Positions 2,186-23,081 of a stretch of DNA of 25,377 nt are shown piece after piece. The notes beneath the pieces are model-generated. The model saw only the letters and a list, made by a program, of their open reading frames with translations. It was not told where the DNA came from and ran no database searches. The position numbers and the translations under genes were made by a program. Location: positions 1 through 25,377 of the IMG/VR virus record IMGVR_UViG_3300032053_000470; one strand, written 5' to 3'. This DNA comes from a virus. Position 1 is the stretch's first letter. Each line of letters opens with the position of its first letter.

Positions 2186-2334
2186 TTTTCTTTTGCTTTT
2201 ATCTTTTTTTCTTGTTGAAGCATTGCTTTTGTTGGTTTTTTTCCGCTACCCCTGTTTTCTCTAATGCTATCCCAAAGTCCATGCCTTGAATAGCTGCCAT
2301 CTTTTCTTTTCATCATTGCATTTGTTTTTTCCAT
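2182..2334 (-). CDS. 50-aa basic conserved phage protein
   Basis: A short gene fills the space between the 206-aa adaptor and the GroES-like gene. It runs from the ATG at 2332-2334 to TGA at 2182-2184. The product is highly basic and Lys-rich: it starts MEKTNAMMKRKDGSYSRHGL, continues WDSIRENRGSGKKPTKAML and ends in a Lys/Gln helix. The core 'GLWD.IR.NRGSGKKPT' recurs, from memory, as a small protein in the structural modules of Bacteroidota phages; its function is unknown. Evidence that it is real: it starts 5 nt after the 206-aa stop and its stop overlaps the GroES start as ATGA. A nucleic-acid or virion-DNA contact is possible from the charge but unproven. Confidence 0.8.
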   Translation of the reverse strand: MEKTNAMMKRKDGSYSRHGLWDSIRENRGSGKKPTKAMLQQEKKIKAKEK

Positions 2335-2339
2335 AGTTT

Positions 2340-2960
2340 TTAGTTTGGCGTATCCACTCCATCGTTTGCAGTTTGGATTGGTCTTTGTTTATTTGCAATA
2401 AGTAATTTCATATATTCAACAATAACAGGTATATAATCATCCGGTACGTTTAATTCAGAAGTTAAGTCGGAAGAAACGCCTCCGCTCACCATTCTTATTT
2501 TTGCTTTAAAGTTTGTAATTATTGTTCCTGATTTTATATAAATTGTTTTGCCATCGTACCAAAAAGCAAATTTACCTTGTATTGGTCTTATATTATTTTG
2601 ATATACTGATTGTGCGGTATTAAGTGGTACTCCTGCTTTTGATTGTTGGTTAGAATAAATCTGCAAAGAAGCTACACCATCCGTTTTTCCTAATGCAAAA
2701 GGTATTTGTGGTAGTGTTATTGTGTACAAATCGGTATCAGCTTGCGTTATAGTCAAATTAGAAAAGGTAGTAAAGAAAGAACTATTTACAAAGGCTACAC
2801 CCTCTAATTGTAGGTTATCGGTATAGTTTTTTTTCGCAGCAACACCAATGCCATCGTTTAACCACTCATTTACAAGATTAAATGTAATAGTTGAATCATC
2901 GCTTGGCTGCTCGTTGTATATCAGCCTTAATATTCTTTCTATGAAAACCTGTCTTGTCAT
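2340..2960 (-). CDS. Neck/head-tail connector protein, 206 aa
   Basis: The product starts MTRQVFIERILRLIYNEQPS, a helical N-terminus (residues 1-45 with VNEWLNDGIGVAAKKNY), followed by a beta-rich middle (TLPQIPFALGKTDGVASLQIYSN; KFAFWYDGKTIYIKSGTII) and a C-terminal helix (DDYIPVIVEYMKLLIANK). The helix-beta-helix plan and position between the portal/capsid and stabilisation genes match the ring or adaptor proteins of short-tailed phages. The start overlaps the stop of the 222-aa gene by 4 nt (ATGA). No catalytic motif is visible. It may share a fold with its 222-aa and 257-aa neighbours, which all read 'helix, beta section with a Y/W-G-K-x-Y strand, helix'. The specific name is not certain. 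Confidence 0.6.
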   Translation of the reverse strand: MTRQVFIERILRLIYNEQPSDDSTITFNLVNEWLNDGIGVAAKKNYTDNLQLEGVAFVNSSFFTTFSNLTITQADTDLYTITLPQIPFALGKTDGVASLQIYSNQQSKAGVPLNTAQSVYQNNIRPIQGKFAFWYDGKTIYIKSGTIITNFKAKIRMVSGGVSSDLTSELNVPDDYIPVIVEYMKLLIANKQRPIQTANDGVDTPN

Positions 2961-3625
2961 TGTCCCTGTGTAATTATAGAGTTAGCGTAATTGAGTACAT
3001 CTCCATCTTTCAAGTTTATTCCTGCAAGTTTTAGTATTCTTGCTATGATTTCAAGTTGGTCTAGGTTGCTCCATTTTGGTTGTTCCGATAATGCAGGGGA
3101 GTAAATTGGTCTACCATTCCCATCAGTAGTATATGCCCAATATATTCTTGTTGGTTTTTTGATATAGGATAGCCTTGCTGCGGTTATATTGGCAGGATAG
3201 AACCTAAACCCTACATCTTCAATAAGGTAGGCAGGATTGGTTGCTATTGGGTCTATTTTTGAATTGTAGATAGAATACAACCTATCTTGGCTTGTCCACG
3301 TTACTCTTTGATTGCCATAGATAGTCCACATGGCATCTGCTTGTAAATAATCTCCGGGATAAAAACAAAATCCATTTAAGTCAACAGATAAGTTTGTGCT
3401 GTATATAAATGGTTGTAGTCTTTGTCTTACGTTGCTGTTTTGTCCGTACCCTATTCTTGATTGAGCCCTTCCGTATTGATACTGCTGAAACTCACCAATG
3501 AGATAATCAGCCCAAGAATTTTGTGCTTGTTCTACAAGTAGGTTGAACTCGGATGGTGTTAGGTTGCCATTTTGTGCCTTGTTAATTGCGTATTGGCAAA
3601 TCCTGTACATTTCATCAACATTCAT
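2957..3625 (-). CDS. Neck/head-tail connector protein, 222 aa
   Basis: It starts MNVDEMYRICQYAINKAQNG, with an N-terminal helical domain (residues 1-50, 'CQYAINKAQNGNLTPSEFN'), a long beta section rich in Tyr and aromatic residues (FCFYPGDYLQADAMWTIY, IEDVGFRFYPANITAARLSY) and a C-terminal helix (LDQLEIIARILKLAGINL). The N-terminal pattern recurs, from memory, as a protein of unknown function in Bacteroidota phage virion modules. It is the first gene after a terminator and a TATATTTG box, so it probably opens the transcription unit that runs through the GroES-like gene to the stabilisation protein. A structural role in the neck is inferred from position. Confidence 0.6.
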   Translation of the reverse strand: MNVDEMYRICQYAINKAQNGNLTPSEFNLLVEQAQNSWADYLIGEFQQYQYGRAQSRIGYGQNSNVRQRLQPFIYSTNLSVDLNGFCFYPGDYLQADAMWTIYGNQRVTWTSQDRLYSIYNSKIDPIATNPAYLIEDVGFRFYPANITAARLSYIKKPTRIYWAYTTDGNGRPIYSPALSEQPKWSNLDQLEIIARILKLAGINLKDGDVLNYANSIITQGQ

Positions 3626-16923: not shown

Positions 16924-18369
16924 TTAATCGTTTTTAATGCCAAATTTACTTAAAATAATTTCCGCATCCAAATAATATGCTCCAAATCTCGAACAAGGGG
17001 GATTTTCTTTATCAACATAACATTCCATACCCTCACAACCTATTGTTTCGTGCCAGCAATGCGGCTTATCGCATATTTTTGTTTGGGTTGGTCTGTCATA
17101 AAACCAATTTAACCATATTATTTTGCTCATATTGGGGTGAATCAGCCTTAAATCTACACTTCCCGAAAATATAACTGATGGGATACCAAATGCTTGTGCA
17201 ATATGTGATATACCCGAATCTATGCCTATAAAAAGGTCTGCTCCTGATACAACACTCATTAAAAACGGAAGTGTTTTTGTTTGTATAAAATCTGCACCCT
17301 CTATTTTCTTACCGTTTATACCCACTTGAAGTACGGCATATCCCATCAATCTAAATTGAGTTGCTATTCCATCAAAAGAAAAATAGTTTATGTTGCGATA
17401 GGGTTGTGCTCTTGTGTCGTTATGTATAATAACGTACTTTTTAAATATTTTATGCTCTTTTGTATCATACTGAAAGTAAAGGTTAGGCTTCTTTATTACC
17501 CCATCTTTTACTCCTGCAAATTCGTAGTATGTTTTTAGGTGAAGTTCTTTTGGTTTGGATTCATAGGACATATCCAAATTATAATATTCATGCGTTATTC
17601 TATTGGCATCAAAGTTTTCGTAAAATTCAATAGGGTATTTGTGTTGCAGAAATAGGTGATAAAATTCGGGTGTAGTTTTTAGCACTACTCTGTATCCTTT
17701 ATTGTAAAAGTGTTCAAGTACAGGCTCAACTCCAATAACATCACCCATAGCACCCATCCTTTGTATTACTACTGTTGGTTGATATGGTTTATGATGGTAT
17801 CCATGAAAGCCAAATGTTTTTCTTCTTGGTTCTTGCACTTCAAATGAAAACCTTTCTGCAATATAATCAGCAGCCCAAACAAGTCCATATTTTTGTTCAA
17901 GGTATCTGCGATAAATTCTACAAATTGAAACATCTTCGGGTGTTAATACTGAAATTGTTTCGTCTATGCCTATTGCATCAAGCAGTTTTTTTGACCGCCA
18001 CGAAAAACCTCCGTTTCCATTATTTAATTGGTCTTTTTCAAGCCACAATGCACCGCAGTAATCGTATAGGTACAAATCTTTTGGAAACAAATCTCCATTT
18101 AGCACATATCCATCGTGTTGAATAACCAATACAAAATCGGTGTTTATGTACTTGTATAGCTGCTTAATCATAAATCGGCTATAATCATCTACCGAATTTA
18201 TGTTATCTACTTTTATTGTTGTTACCCCCTCTAATTCAATATAAGCATTTGTAAAAAATAAACATTCATCCGGTTCAACCTCCATCAATGTTTTTCTTAA
18301 AGCTATTACTGATTCGCCCACGTTGTAAGTATCAACGCATACTATTGTTACATTATCTAGTTTTTTCAT
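16924..18369 (-). CDS. Fused glycosyltransferase: DUF5672-like plus GT9-like
   Basis: Two domains are visible in one 481-aa chain. Residues 1-195 fit the DUF5672 pattern (GT-A-like): VLVIQHDGYVLNGD (80-93), NGNGGFSWRSKKLL (117-130), LTPEDVSICR (142-151) and FGFHGYH (186-192). Residues 197-481 fit GT9: VIQRMGAMGDVIGVEP (201-216), IIHNDTRAQPYRN and GIDSGISHIAQAFGIPSV (382-399) with the Asp-Ser-Gly intact. The C-terminus has a Cys-rich loop (C433, C438, C445, C450), possibly metal- or disulphide-bound. A bifunctional enzyme may add two sugars in sequence. It overlaps the exported protein gene by 17 nt. Donor and acceptor are unknown. Confidence 0.75.
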   Translation of the reverse strand: MKKLDNVTIVCVDTYNVGESVIALRKTLMEVEPDECLFFTNAYIELEGVTTIKVDNINSVDDYSRFMIKQLYKYINTDFVLVIQHDGYVLNGDLFPKDLYLYDYCGALWLEKDQLNNGNGGFSWRSKKLLDAIGIDETISVLTPEDVSICRIYRRYLEQKYGLVWAADYIAERFSFEVQEPRRKTFGFHGYHHKPYQPTVVIQRMGAMGDVIGVEPVLEHFYNKGYRVVLKTTPEFYHLFLQHKYPIEFYENFDANRITHEYYNLDMSYESKPKELHLKTYYEFAGVKDGVIKKPNLYFQYDTKEHKIFKKYVIIHNDTRAQPYRNINYFSFDGIATQFRLMGYAVLQVGINGKKIEGADFIQTKTLPFLMSVVSGADLFIGIDSGISHIAQAFGIPSVIFSGSVDLRLIHPNMSKIIWLNWFYDRPTQTKICDKPHCWHETIGCEGMECYVDKENPPCSRFGAYYLDAEIILSKFGIKND

Positions 18370-19127: not shown

Positions 19128-19436
19128 TTATACTAAGGATATACTGCTTACTCTAATGTGTATTTGTGCTTGAATGTTTTTATCTTCTCCGGTATATGTT
19201 TTTGCTTCGGGTTTTCCCTCTATATAAATTGTAGTTCCCTTTTTCATATAGTTTGCAATATTTGTTTTTTCAGTCCACCATGCACAATAAAGCCATGTTG
19301 TTTTTTGCTGCTCTACTCCTTCTGCATTTTTGTACTTTTCAGTATGTGCAGCACTAAAGTTAATTACTGACTTTCCATTTACTTGATTAACTGTTGCATC
19401 TTTTCCAAGATTTGCGATTGTTTCAATTTTTAACAT
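19128..19436 (-). CDS. ssb: Single-stranded DNA-binding protein
   Basis: The 102-aa product has the SSB OB-fold: an N-terminal strand (MLKIETIANLGKDATVNQ), the conserved Asn-Phe-Ser-hydrophobic stretch (SVINFSAAHTE), aromatic strand TTWLYCAWWTEKTNIA and GTTIYIEGKPEAKTY ('G..v.veG.l....y'). It stops right after the last strand, ending SSISLV, with no disordered linker and none of the acidic tip that host SSB uses to recruit partners. It coats single-stranded DNA at the fork and during recombination. The start overlaps the C5 methyltransferase end by 14 nt, so it belongs to the replication operon. Confidence 0.9.
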   Translation of the reverse strand: MLKIETIANLGKDATVNQVNGKSVINFSAAHTEKYKNAEGVEQQKTTWLYCAWWTEKTNIANYMKKGTTIYIEGKPEAKTYTGEDKNIQAQIHIRVSSISLV

Positions 19437-20325
19437 TGTTTAGTTTTTTATTTATTAATGATTCGTATTCTTGAATTGCTTTAAATATTTGGTAAACGAT
19501 TTGCGGTACTATTGCGTTACCGGCTGCTTTGATTGATTCGTTTCTCCACTTAGAAAAGGTAATGTTGTCCAATCGGGAGGAAATCCCATCATTTCCAATA
19601 CAAATTGGGGATTGAGATGGGAACGTGTCCCAAAAATTTCGTTCATATGGCTGCCCAAATCGACTCCTTTCCAATTCTTTGTTTTCCAATGTATATTTTT
19701 GTCGCTGGCGGTCGGCGTTGGAAGTAAGCCGTTCCTCGCCATTTGTGGTAGAGATATTCCGTATCTTATCCCTGTCTTGAAACTGATACTCTTGCCGTTC
19801 GTTAACTCCCGCCCCTCGTTCGTTCCGTCCATAGTTTTTGGCGTAGGCAACAAACCAAACTCTATCCCTTCGGTGCGGAGCGTTGACGGATACAGCTGGA
19901 AGTACATACGGCCATACTTCGTACCCCGCAGCTTCCAAGTCAGCTTGCACCTCGTGGAATACCAACCCTCTTGACCAATTAACAAGGCCGAGAACGTTTT
20001 CGCCCACAACCCAACGTGGCTGAATTTCTCTAATTGCTCTAAGCATTTCCGGCCAGAGATGTCGTTCATCTTCTTTTCCTTTTCGTTTTCCGGCACTTGA
20101 ATAGGGTTGACAAGGGAACCCACCTGTGAGAATGTCAATTGTTCCTCGGTGAATAGTAAAGTCTGTTTTAGTGATGTCATTACAAGAAATTGATTTTGGA
20201 AAGTGATATTTTAATACTTTTTGTCCAAACTCGTTCCATTCACAATGGAATACGTTTTCCCATCCCATCCATTCGGCTGCTAAGTCAAAGCCGCCTATTC
20301 CGCTAAATAATGAACCATGTGTCAT
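19423..20325 (-). CDS. C5 DNA cytosine methyltransferase
   Basis: A 300-aa protein with the C5-MTase order of motifs: motif I SLFSGIGGFD (5-14), catalytic motif IV GGFPCQPYSSAG with Cys72, motif VI ENV (109-111), motif VIII NAPHRRDRVWF (148-158) and motif X AAGNAIVPQI (267-276). The target-recognition region between VIII and X is short (about 100 residues). No restriction enzyme gene is next to it, so this looks like a phage orphan methyltransferase that protects against host restriction or marks phage DNA. It starts 12 nt after the helicase stop. A second ORF is nested inside it in another frame (see 19509-20180), which should limit its synonymous variation. Confidence 0.92.
   Translation of the reverse strand: MTHGSLFSGIGGFDLAAEWMGWENVFHCEWNEFGQKVLKYHFPKSISCNDITKTDFTIHRGTIDILTGGFPCQPYSSAGKRKGKEDERHLWPEMLRAIREIQPRWVVGENVLGLVNWSRGLVFHEVQADLEAAGYEVWPYVLPAVSVNAPHRRDRVWFVAYAKNYGRNERGAGVNERQEYQFQDRDKIRNISTTNGEERLTSNADRQRQKYTLENKELERSRFGQPYERNFWDTFPSQSPICIGNDGISSRLDNITFSKWRNESIKAAGNAIVPQIVYQIFKAIQEYESLINKKLNNVKN
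19509..20180 (-). CDS. Overprinted gene inside the C5 methyltransferase
   Basis: A 223-aa ORF lies wholly within the methyltransferase gene, same strand, shifted +1. It starts MTSLKQTLLFTEEQLTFSQV. It is not a bland shadow: the product carries LLPTP (110-114), GLLPTPTASD (151-160) and LNPQFVLEMMGFPPDWT (189-205), with spaced aromatic residues (HVGLWAKTFSALLIGQEGW). From memory, 'LLPTPTA.D ... LNP.fv..MMGfP..WT' recurs in uncharacterised proteins encoded in or beside cytosine methyltransferases of phages and bacteria. The stop falls 86 nt before the methyltransferase end. The start at 20180 is the first ATG; initiation at Met38 is possible. Function is unknown; a partner or modulator of the enzyme is a guess. 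Confidence 0.7.
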   Translation of the reverse strand: MTSLKQTLLFTEEQLTFSQVGSLVNPIQVPENEKEKKMNDISGRKCLEQLEKFSHVGLWAKTFSALLIGQEGWYSTRCKLTWKLRGTKYGRMYFQLYPSTLRTEGIEFGLLPTPKTMDGTNEGRELTNGKSISFKTGIRYGISLPQMARNGLLPTPTASDKNIHWKTKNWKGVDLGSHMNEIFGTRSHLNPQFVLEMMGFPPDWTTLPFLSGETNQSKQPVTQ

Positions 20326-20337
20326 AAAATAATTTAA

Positions 20338-22167
20338 TTAAAAATAAGTAAAATCATTTGATTCTTCAACTATTTCTTCTTGTTGTCCAAAATTAATATT
20401 TTTATTTCTTAGCAATACTGCAATAGGGTCTATTCCATTAAATAAAAATCTTCTTGTTTTGAAAAACATTTCAAATAGTATAAAGCCCTTTTTCCCTACT
20501 ATCTTTTGTCTGCGTATCTTTTTAGAGTGAAATTCACAAGAAGGGTTTTGTGGGTCTGTTTGTGCTAATCCTCGGTGGTATATTAATATGTTATCCATTT
20601 TATTGTTCCACATAGCACCATCATTCAAATCAAATACATCGGGGCATGGATAGTTTCCGCTATTAGCTTTTACCATTAATTTAGGGTGGGCTATTATCCA
20701 AAAGAAAACATTATTAGTTTGTGCAAATCTGCTGAATAAAGATAACACCCATTCTAAGTACTTATCGGTTCTTTGAAAGTTTTTGTATTCGTTAGTAAGT
20801 TGGTTGAATGGGTCTATGTCGCAACCATCAATATTTTCCTTTATTATCAATTCAAGAAAAACCTCCATTACATATTGTGGTGTAGGGCTTACATCTTTTG
20901 GATATACATAGAATATGTGTTTACATACAAGGTCATATACTCCTTCGTAAATTTCTCTTGAAGGTCTGTTTGGATTACTTGGGCTACAATCGCAACCTAA
21001 TATAATCTCTACAAAATCGTGGTAGTATTCTTCGGGTGGATTATCTTCCGGTGCAAAAGAAGCAAACTTTTCTCCATGCAGTAACATTCGCATAGCTTGA
21101 TACCACTTCTTAAAAGTTGACTTGCCATAATTCCCGATTCCAGATAGCAAAGTTATTTCACCTCTTTTTGGCTTAAACCTTTCATCTAATTCGGGTATGC
21201 CTACTCCATCAATCTTTGCATATCCTTCATCGTATATTTTTAATGCTTGCTCTTTTACATCAATGCCATAAACAACATCTTTCAGCTTTAATCCTTCATC
21301 AAATATTGTTTGGTCAACAGGTATTTCTTTTCTTGTTACTTTATCCACTAACACTTCTCTATCAAAAGAAGCTGAACCATAACTTGAATTGTTTGATTTA
21401 TATGCTGACTTAATTGCCCTTTGTGCTTCGTTTCTTGTAAAATCAGAATTGCTTACAAACTCTGATTCAATCATACTTGTTGCGGAATGTAAGTCTATTC
21501 CGAACCTACAACAAGCAGAAGCTAATTTGAAAATAAAATTATTTCTCTCCCCTGTAACAAATGCTTCGTTCTTATTTGTTAGCCAAGTAAGTATTCTTTT
21601 GAAGATAACATCTTGCTCTGCGGTTTTTACATAAGTTGGTATTTTTTCAATCTTTTTTGTTTTGGTAAAAACACTCGCTTCCTTGTTTGTGTAAATTTCA
21701 CTATCGAAAGATTCATAGCATACCCTAGATGGGTTTATTCCGCTTTTATCTATGTCTATAAATTCTTCTTGTAGTGCCTGGAAATGTTCTCGGTGTTTTT
21801 TTGGACTGGATATTTTAACAAGTGCTTTTAACCCATTACCCGAAGGAGAAACCCAACAAGCATATACAAAGGGATGGGAAATTATCTCTGTTTGCTTATC
21901 CCTTAACTCACCTACATTATCAAAGTCAAGTACAATATATCCCGAATGTTCTATAAGTTGTTCATCTGTTCTATCCTTTCCAAACTTTCCGGAAAAGCAA
22001 ATGGAGGGTAAATTAAGTTTAATTTTGTTCGCTTTTTCCTTGTCTAAAGTACCCCTAATTTCCTCTACTATTTTTCTACTTTTACCCGATTTAATTCTTT
22101 CTAAAGCATCGTCAACGGAAACATAAAATGGTTCTTTTGAGAAAATGTTTTTGAAAATCGTAACCAT
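20338..22167 (-). CDS. Primase/helicase: VirE_N-like domain plus DnaB-like ATPase
   Basis: A 609-aa protein with two parts. Residues 15-170 fit the BT4734/VirE_N (PF08800) domain: CFSGKFGKDRTDEQLIEHSG, YIVLDFDNV with Asp91 and Asp93, and WVSPSGNGLKALVKIS (105-120), an archaeo-eukaryotic primase-like layout. Residues 310-580 are a RecA-like DnaB/Twinkle-type motor: Walker A SGIGNYGKSTF (342-352), an acidic Walker B DGCDIDPFNQL (447-457), IIAHPK (491-496) as the sensor region, and a C-terminal KIRRQKIVGKKG basic segment. It probably primes and unwinds phage DNA as one chain. The gene comes after the DUF1376-type initiator and before the methyltransferase. Primase activity is inferred, not shown. 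Confidence 0.85.
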   Translation of the reverse strand: MVTIFKNIFSKEPFYVSVDDALERIKSGKSRKIVEEIRGTLDKEKANKIKLNLPSICFSGKFGKDRTDEQLIEHSGYIVLDFDNVGELRDKQTEIISHPFVYACWVSPSGNGLKALVKISSPKKHREHFQALQEEFIDIDKSGINPSRVCYESFDSEIYTNKEASVFTKTKKIEKIPTYVKTAEQDVIFKRILTWLTNKNEAFVTGERNNFIFKLASACCRFGIDLHSATSMIESEFVSNSDFTRNEAQRAIKSAYKSNNSSYGSASFDREVLVDKVTRKEIPVDQTIFDEGLKLKDVVYGIDVKEQALKIYDEGYAKIDGVGIPELDERFKPKRGEITLLSGIGNYGKSTFKKWYQAMRMLLHGEKFASFAPEDNPPEEYYHDFVEIILGCDCSPSNPNRPSREIYEGVYDLVCKHIFYVYPKDVSPTPQYVMEVFLELIIKENIDGCDIDPFNQLTNEYKNFQRTDKYLEWVLSLFSRFAQTNNVFFWIIAHPKLMVKANSGNYPCPDVFDLNDGAMWNNKMDNILIYHRGLAQTDPQNPSCEFHSKKIRRQKIVGKKGFILFEMFFKTRRFLFNGIDPIAVLLRNKNINFGQQEEIVEESNDFTYF

Positions 22168-22298: not shown

Positions 22299-23081
22299 CT
22301 ATTCTTCGGCATATTGCGTTGGAACAAAATTGTTTCTTGCGATTTCTAACTCCTTTTCAATGTTTATCGGAACGTAACCGGAGGGGGTAAAGTTCGCCCT
22401 TGCTTCCTCCAACCCTTTTTCCAAAAATTGCTTTTGGGGTGCTGCCATCGGTTTCAAAAATGGGATTGTGTTTTTAATTTTTGCTTTCCAATTTTTTATC
22501 GGTTTGTTGTGTCCATCCTTCCATCCGTTTTCCTGCCAAGTTTCAATTTTTGATTTCACCGGGTATTCAAATTTTGAAAAATCGTGTCCAAGTTTTTCAA
22601 TTTCAGTTTTGGCAAAATTTAGAATTTCTGAAATTTCGGGCATTTGTATTTTTTTAACTTTACTATTTGTAAGAATACTTTCTTTTTCTATTACATTTTC
22701 ATTTTCATTTTCATCTTCCATATGCTTATCCATATGAGTATCCATATGCTTAGCATATGCTTCGGTGTTTTTTTTCTTACTTTTTTCAACCAAACCGTTA
22801 CTGCGTCTGCTTTCTGTGTATTTACTTCTTCTTTCTTTTTCTTTCTCTAATCTTGAATTTAAATAATATTTACCATCAAATTCAAATTTTTCTAAAACAT
22901 TTGTGCAAACATTGTCAAAGCATACGCCAAGCATATGCTTAGCTTGTGCTTCTGTAAATTTACCCCTAGCAAACTGCAACATTAGTAGTTCTATGTACGC
23001 ACCTTTTTCTAATAAAGTGAAGTGCATAGTTCCTAGCTGCCAATCACCCGGATAAAACAAAAAAGCAGGGTCTTTTGCCAT
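22299..23081 (-). CDS. DUF1376-type replication initiator / helicase loader
   Basis: Product of 260 aa. Residues 1-90 fit DUF1376 (YdaU-like): MAKDPAFLFYPGDWQLGTMH, FTLLEKGAYIELLMLQFARG and DGKYYLNSRLEKEKERR. Residues 95-130 are a charged linker with the tandem HMDT/HMDK repeat and alternating Glu/Asn. Residues 140-205 hold a helix-rich part (FEYPVKSKIETWQENGWKDG). The C-terminus carries two copies of a short motif, GLEEARANFTPSGY (223-236) and ELEIARNNFVPTQY (244-257). Proteins of this type act as phage replication initiators or helicase loaders, much like lambda O/P. It lies just upstream of the primase-helicase, and its gene carries iteron-like repeats, both consistent with origin recognition. 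Confidence 0.75.
   Translation of the reverse strand: MAKDPAFLFYPGDWQLGTMHFTLLEKGAYIELLMLQFARGKFTEAQAKHMLGVCFDNVCTNVLEKFEFDGKYYLNSRLEKEKERRSKYTESRRSNGLVEKSKKKNTEAYAKHMDTHMDKHMEDENENENVIEKESILTNSKVKKIQMPEISEILNFAKTEIEKLGHDFSKFEYPVKSKIETWQENGWKDGHNKPIKNWKAKIKNTIPFLKPMAAPQKQFLEKGLEEARANFTPSGYVPINIEKELEIARNNFVPTQYAEE
22694..22764. repeat. Iteron-like array and AT-rich repeats; candidate origin
   Basis: Four tandem 12-bp units centred on the palindrome CATATG run from 22717 to 22764: TCCATATGCTTA, TCCATATGAGTA, TCCATATGCTTA, then the diverged GCATATGCTTCG. Immediately to the left, CATTTT is repeated three times (22694-22711), giving an easily melted tract. A further copy, AAGCATATGCTTAG, lies at 22929-22942. 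All are inside the DUF1376-type gene, as lambda ori lies inside O. The repeats also encode a 4-residue protein repeat, so selection on protein is an alternative cause. Confidence 0.5.

Follow-up and report, generated by a model that had tools for sequence, protein, structure and literature searches.

A probable two-subunit C5 cytosine methyltransferase in overlapping reading frames, with an exchangeable cassette array in the nested gene

Long overlaps between genes on the same strand are rarely explained, and the locus described here raises the question of why a viral C5 cytosine methyltransferase gene should hold a second long open reading frame (ORF) inside it. The window analyzed is the whole of the IMG/VR virus record IMGVR_UViG_3300032053_000470 (25,377 bases), which appears as locus L081 in our comparisons. 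Its alpha gene matches PF00145 (E 6.3e-49) and phrog_363 (E 1.1e-74). Wholly within alpha, on the same strand and in the +1 frame, lies the beta ORF, which starts 48.33 codons into alpha (Table 1). A preliminary description of this DNA had reported this nested 223-codon frame, repeated LLPTP motifs together with LNPQFVLEMMGFPPDWT in its product, and a motif string shared with methyltransferase-associated proteins elsewhere. The ORF is present as described, its product carries the LLPTP-type motif twice as well as LNPQFVLEMMGFPPDWT, and the motif string belongs to a real family, since a database search with the beta protein finds phrog_1008 (E 2.1e-22). That entry reads 'DNA methyltransferase', category 'other', and is silent on overlap or role. 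No family was found for beta in Pfam or NCBIfam up to E 1, and its profile has no match among solved structures up to E 10. The reading we favor, at a probability of roughly 0.8, is that the locus encodes a two-subunit C5 cytosine methyltransferase in overlapping frames, with beta setting specificity by means of exchangeable cassettes.

Table 1 Features of the alpha-beta locus in window coordinates
Feature	Position	Strand	Basis or remark
alpha	19423..20325	-	300 aa; C5 cytosine methyltransferase catalytic subunit
alpha motif I (GSLFSGIGGF)	20287..20316	-	alignment to M.HhaI
alpha motif IV, catalytic Cys (GGFPCQPYSS)	20095..20124	-	alignment to M.HhaI
alpha motif VI (GENVLG)	19987..20004	-	alignment to M.HhaI
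alpha motif VIII (APHRRDRVW)	19855..19881	-	alignment to M.HhaI
alpha residues 161-232	19630..19845	-	hydrophilic linker, alpha frame opposite beta cassettes
alpha motif X (KAAGNAIVPQI)	19498..19530	-	weak second segment against M.HhaI
beta	19509..20180	-	223 aa, ATG start; proposed target-recognition and motif IX subunit
beta conserved core, residues 43-100	19881..20054	-	GRKC...W.S..C.L.WK..GTK..R..FQL
beta cassette 1 (LLPTPKTMDG...)	19725..19853	-	own boundary definition
beta cassette 2 (LPTPTASDKN...)	19623..19724	-	own boundary definition
beta motif IX-like segment (SHLNPQFVLEMMGFPPDWT)	19566..19622	-	best motif IX matrix window; weak hhalign segment

The genes around the pair provide its context. 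On the same strand, 19128-19436 encodes an SSB-family protein, 20338-22167 a protein with BT4734-like and primase C-terminal domains, and 22299-23081 a DUF1376 protein, and with such neighbors the alpha-beta pair seems to be part of a replication module. The window also encodes, at 16924-18369 on the minus strand, a 481-residue protein that combines DUF5672 with a glycosyltransferase family 9-like region. Relatives in bacterial genomes are mostly Bacteroidota (best 80 of 117 listed), which suggests a Bacteroidota host. The beta profile identified a copy in 2 of 296 Bacteroidota genomes, one of these being the centre genome, picked for having one, and this low prevalence fits carriage on mobile elements. 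A tblastn search with beta matched 72 phage records, and a plasmid search returned 6 records.

Conservation of the nested frame was examined in loci fetched by alpha alone, because selection of loci by beta was to be avoided; the best 80 of more than 80 matches were taken, and these are the closer relatives. Pooled with beta-fetched loci, and with four partial alpha genes dropped (L054, L061, L074 and L112), they gave 119 distinct complete alpha genes, 70 of which are represented in the alpha-fetched set. An unbroken +1 run of at least 170 codons is present in 69 of these 70 (among the best 80 alpha matches) and in 118 of the 119 overall. When the codons of the 119 alpha genes were shuffled synonymously, the observed longest +1 run was matched in 10 of 11,900 shuffles, in agreement with the earlier statement that the frame is unlike a random shadow; the median +1 run of shuffled genes is still 93 codons. 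Of the 119 genes, 101 have a +1-frame ATG within alpha codon index 40-49, compared to 2,777 of 5,950 shuffles. The frame relationship extends to more remote relatives, 80 of them loci from bacterial genomes and 9 from phage records, with beta identity down to 26%, where the best beta match lies at the +1 offset to alpha in 88 of 89 loci; this figure counts frame offset, and beta or alpha is broken in some of them (e.g. L085, L240, L242 and L247).

Stops or frame breaks in homologues had been named in the preliminary description as the place to look for trouble, and the gene survived the search. A strict count, run from alpha codon 60 to 45 codons short of the alpha end, finds a nested-frame stop in 4 of the 119 distinct genes (L037, L072, L100 and L163), with L100 and L163 belonging to the 70 alpha-fetched genes (among the best 80 alpha matches). 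In two of the four, alpha also has an unusual residue next to the stop, at a site that is otherwise highly conserved in its family (G to V ahead of GFPCQ in L072, P to L in HLWPEM in L100), so a single lesion or sequencing error hitting both frames is possible. L163 has a nested-frame stop while its alpha looks intact.

Several loci show structures of their own. L037 has an insertion at about 1490-1900, between beta motif IX and alpha motif X, which in the +1 frame resembles an HNH-like endonuclease by eye only; alpha is open across it and reaches 498 residues, and an Rfam search for an intron returned nothing at gathering score. L242 and L247 come from two Bacteroidales genomes and have two in-frame alpha TGA codons in common, at residue 19, which is Trp in the window, and at residue 59, with beta open over the part covered; in L247 there is a further alpha TGA at 256. 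Either decay or TGA recoding would account for these codons. The alpha and beta matches of L249 are each divided over two frames at a similar place, likely through a shared frameshift or in a decayed copy. Finally, a Larkinella genome has a gene of the alpha-beta type and one for a single-chain C5 methyltransferase side by side (L214 and L270).

Selection on beta was assessed through synonymous third-position differences in the alpha frame, computed for 119 aligned genes over 2,500 random pairs and uncorrected for shared ancestry. Inspection of these values along alpha reveals a difference of 0.426 at residues 1-47, before beta begins, and of 0.354 at residues 49-96, opposite the first 48 residues of beta, where the interval overlaps that of the beta-free part. 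The difference is 0.189 at residues 97-144, opposite the beta core, and 0.358 at alpha motif VIII. It then stands at 0.135 for residues 233-240, at 0.037 for residues 241-256, which lie opposite LNPxFVxxMMGFP of beta, and at 0.192 for residues 257-264, followed by 0.425 at alpha motif X and, past the end of beta, 0.414. Permutation over codons gives p of about 5e-5 for the beta core and the motif IX region alike; because the pairs share ancestry, which codon permutation leaves unmodelled, more weight attaches to the internal controls on either side of beta. Synonymous constraint tracks the conserved parts of beta. That is to say, the measurement proposed in the preliminary description gives strong constraint over the core and the motif region, slight constraint over the first 48 residues and none in either flank.

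The protein alignment marks the same core. Residues C46, L67, G69, W73, S75, C78, W82, R91 and L96 are invariant across 108 aligned beta proteins (alignment A1). These come from the 119 genes. Frame breaks or an insertion excluded L037, L072, L100 and L163, and L007, L020, L039, L062, L111, L118 and L125 were omitted without a fixed rule, most of the latter being apparent near-duplicates of retained sequences. As far as sequence comparison can establish it, the nested beta ORF is a gene.

What such a gene might contribute can be approached from what alpha holds and what it lacks. Alpha contains segments that we take to be motifs I, IV, VI and VIII, and with I, IV (PCQ), VI (ENV), VIII and X present it is a member of the PF00145 type. 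Within motif X, G269, N270 and A271 are invariant in 66 aligned alpha proteins (alignment A3, 66 chosen sequences comprising the window, 31 viral and 34 bacterial-genome loci). The alpha profile aligns with M.HhaI over alpha 2-168, covering motifs I-VIII, with a second, weak match at motif X. With M.HaeIII and some other chains the alignment is one stretch that continues as far as motif X (1-284 for 1dct), so the interruption found with M.HhaI is not common to all matches. A structure model of alpha (pTM 0.69) has M.HhaI as its best match (Z 23.1, rmsd 2.6, 205 residues aligned), with pLDDT below 50 from residue 192 to 230 and no confidently predicted small domain.

A candidate for motif IX lies in the other frame, where LNPxFVxxMMGFP of beta resembles motif IX of C5 methyltransferases. 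We scored it with a position-specific matrix built from 23 single-chain motif IX segments, which were found by our own widened regular expression, so that the matrix leans towards that pattern. The same beta segment is the best-scoring stretch in 107 of 108 beta proteins, matches that are not independent because the sequences are related; the exception, L131, has a motif IX-like segment and a higher score elsewhere. Scores exceed the 99th percentile of shuffled sequences in 59 of the 108, and the window's own beta, at 4.3, falls under that percentile (6.1). No alpha protein (0 of 119) exceeds the 99th percentile of its shuffles with this matrix. In hhalign comparisons of beta with 11 single-chain methyltransferases, beta 188-206 falls on motif IX with a probability of 0.8% and P 0.073, which is not significant. 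Structure prediction for beta alone was poor (pTM 0.22, mean pLDDT 54.6); two weak rows from structural comparison of this model (Z 3.0 and 2.9) were set aside, and the lack of a known fold in it is not evidence of a new one.

The order of the segments on the DNA is informative in its own right. Motif VIII (19881-19855) is followed by the cassettes (19853-19623), the motif IX-like segment (19622-19566) and motif X (19530-19498). The succession VIII, target recognition, IX, X is that of canonical C5 enzymes, except that its middle section is read in the +1 frame, and the position of the beta segment between VIII and X adds weight to its identification as motif IX. Overprinting on the conserved methyltransferase motifs is limited to the N-terminal half of beta. 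Taken together, the alignments and substitution patterns indicate that both frames are selected and that the conserved segments are divided between them. A compensating pair of frame changes in a single-chain ancestor, combined with an internal start, is a plausible origin for the arrangement.

Between motif VIII and the motif IX-like segment, beta is highly variable and modular. The variable region opens with LLPTP, and this anchor is then repeated, each anchor heading a cassette; the window's beta has two. With cassette boundaries and 60% clustering as defined in this analysis, 106 parsed beta proteins yield 244 cassettes of at least 18 residues. One to four LPTP cassettes occur in 105 of the 106, with one anchor in 15 proteins, two in 48, three in 33, four in 9 and none in 1. 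An earlier, narrower anchor pattern, applied to 108 proteins, placed no anchor in 1, one in 16, two in 51, three in 32 and four in 8. The motif was missed by our patterns in L095 and L114, which are outside the census (2 of 108), and one of the 108 was left out of the arrangement and open-frame analysis. The cassettes form 82 clusters and occur in 91 distinct arrangements, and the commonest has 13 left neighbors besides the array start and 14 right neighbors besides motif IX.

Cassettes change in the manner of a beta-frame coding sequence. Pairs from the same cluster differ by 0.117, 0.082 and 0.357 at the first, second and third beta codon positions (587 pairs, shared ancestry uncorrected), a signature of coding in the beta frame. 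Over the variable region, amino-acid differences between pairs reach 0.78 in alpha and 0.70 in beta (3,000 random pairs, shared ancestry uncorrected). The alpha frame is open across this region in 107 of 107 genes, versus 379 of 10,700 beta-synonymous shuffles, a contrast partly built into the sampling because alpha genes were taken as complete ORFs. Being divergent and open at once, alpha apparently must read through the cassettes, with its own sequence there hardly mattering. Arrangements differ even where backbones are nearly the same: among 118 pairs sharing at least 92% identity over alpha codons 1-155, 109 have different cassette arrangements, and L008 and L014, which show no difference in those 465 bases, carry different cassettes. 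The sequences are metagenomic contigs, so some swapped pairs could be assembly chimeras. These comparisons point to cassettes that are selected in the beta frame and shuffled, with the alpha frame held open through them.

Division of a C5 enzyme between two chains has precedents. The smaller subunit of M.EcoHK31I, a two-polypeptide enzyme for YGGCCR, is reportedly encoded within the gene for the larger, in another frame. According to the accessible portion of PMC3404938, the larger subunit carries motifs I-VIII and X along with the predicted target-recognition domain, and the smaller carries IX. The present pair is similar in that alpha has I-VIII and X and the motif IX-like segment, weak by hhalign, is in beta. 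It differs in that codon phase places the variable region in the smaller subunit, and in its cassette array, none being mentioned for M.EcoHK31I in that portion of the paper. We therefore do not assign the pair to the M.EcoHK31I type, whose recognition domain is placed in the larger subunit, the two having been compared by description only; by analogy, the pair may nonetheless work like an enzyme of this type. The same portion of PMC3404938 describes M.AquI as naturally split, with a break that falls within the variable region and leaves IX as well as X to the small subunit, whereas X stays with alpha here. It also reports that M.SssI fragments, the second starting between motif VIII and the target-recognition domain, retain about 4% of full activity, which makes the division between alpha and beta physically reasonable.

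Arrays of recognition domains have precedents of another kind. The multispecific methyltransferases of Bacillus phages are described as single polypeptides. In these C5 enzymes, tandem target-recognition domains confer several recognition sequences, with SPR, SPbeta, phi3T, rho11 and H2 as examples named in reference titles (PMC8936443, accessible portion). In contrast, the array here is in the nested subunit, and cassettes and catalytic motifs occupy different frames. The tandem LPTP cassettes would each have a recognition role comparable to those domains, and multispecificity is suggested by analogy.

We propose the following scheme. Alpha would supply SAM binding and catalysis through motifs I-VIII together with X, having no recognisable target-recognition domain or motif IX of its own. 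Translation of beta would start at the internal ATG about 48 codons into alpha, and its conserved core probably docks onto alpha. The remainder of beta would provide an array of exchangeable target-recognition cassettes followed by motif IX, and the two chains would assemble into one enzyme with a specificity set by beta. Exchange of cassettes between phages would change or add to the sequences methylated, and so may protect phage DNA from host restriction. Exchangeable target recognition directed against restriction is a likely role for the array, which by analogy is possibly multispecific.

How firmly this scheme should be held depends on what else could produce the same sequence. One alternative is that the nested ORF is a passive shadow of alpha codon usage. 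The conserved motifs of alpha do partly constrain the other frame, and shuffled genes keep +1 runs of appreciable median length. However, the observed open run far exceeds that of the shuffles, synonymous change is reduced mainly where beta is conserved, and the fastest-evolving position inside the cassettes is the third position of beta codons. Contradicted as it is at the level of sequence, this explanation is hardly credible. A different account dispenses with a separate beta by invoking two ribosomal frameshifts, +1 after motif VIII and back before motif X, that would deliver one canonical enzyme. The canonical order on the DNA with its middle in the +1 frame is just what this would need, whereas constraint on the beta core, which lies upstream of the first required shift, is not; nor is enrichment of a start ATG for beta, nor an alpha frame kept open through the cassettes in every gene analyzed. 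We consider frameshifting very improbable.

It could also be that beta is a real overlapping gene whose product is a separate partner or regulator of the enzyme, for instance an inhibitor or a tether to the replication machinery. The empty Pfam, NCBIfam and solved-structure searches, within their E limits, and the weakness of the motif IX similarity in profile comparison are compatible with such a role. Set against this, alpha has no recognisable motif IX or confidently predicted small domain, the beta motif sits on the DNA exactly between alpha VIII and X, and a hypervariable cassette array ahead of motif IX has the expected look of a target-recognition region. An independent partner or regulator is thus unlikely, and the best reading of the sequences is that beta is the missing target-recognition and motif IX half of the methyltransferase.

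Elements of this arrangement are already known, namely split C5 enzymes and tandem recognition domains, each separately, and overlap annotated in individual phage records. At the beta match in Paenibacillus phage Diva, for example, DIVA_50 ('g49 internal gene') is annotated inside a DNA-cytosine methyltransferase gene, its product a hypothetical protein with no function given. As far as the openly licensed literature shows, the novelty lies in their combination, an array of shuffled cassettes that belongs to an overprinted subunit and is conserved in phages as well as bacterial genomes; no account of an overlapping methyltransferase subunit with a cassette array was found in that literature, including the accessible portions of PMC3404938, PMC3439449, PMC6456624, PMC8936443, PMC6070908 and PMC11860570.

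Annotation can lose or misname half of such an enzyme. In KT997847 (L085), both annotated methyltransferase genes follow the beta frame and the alpha catalytic stretch is unannotated, and in many listed Paenibacillus records the beta match lies under two methyltransferase features, or under one and a hypothetical protein; half of the enzyme can thus be dropped or misnamed. In the 2291-3216 region of KT997847, the methyltransferase begins, with motif I, in the beta frame and continues from 2395, over its catalytic stretch, in another, a change due to a frameshift either in the record or in nature.

The logic of this overlap is readable: a canonical methyltransferase has its recognition section in the +1 frame and a second start upstream. 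The odds seem about even that phages and prophages of a widespread family obtain combinatorial methylation specificity in this way, with shuffled, overprinted cassettes that must each be readable in two frames and an array through which one enzyme addresses several targets. If the cassettes are recognition units, phages would be able to alter their methylation by exchanging segments that are mostly 30-50 residues long, and the specificities for targets could perhaps be read from cassette sequence and engineered.
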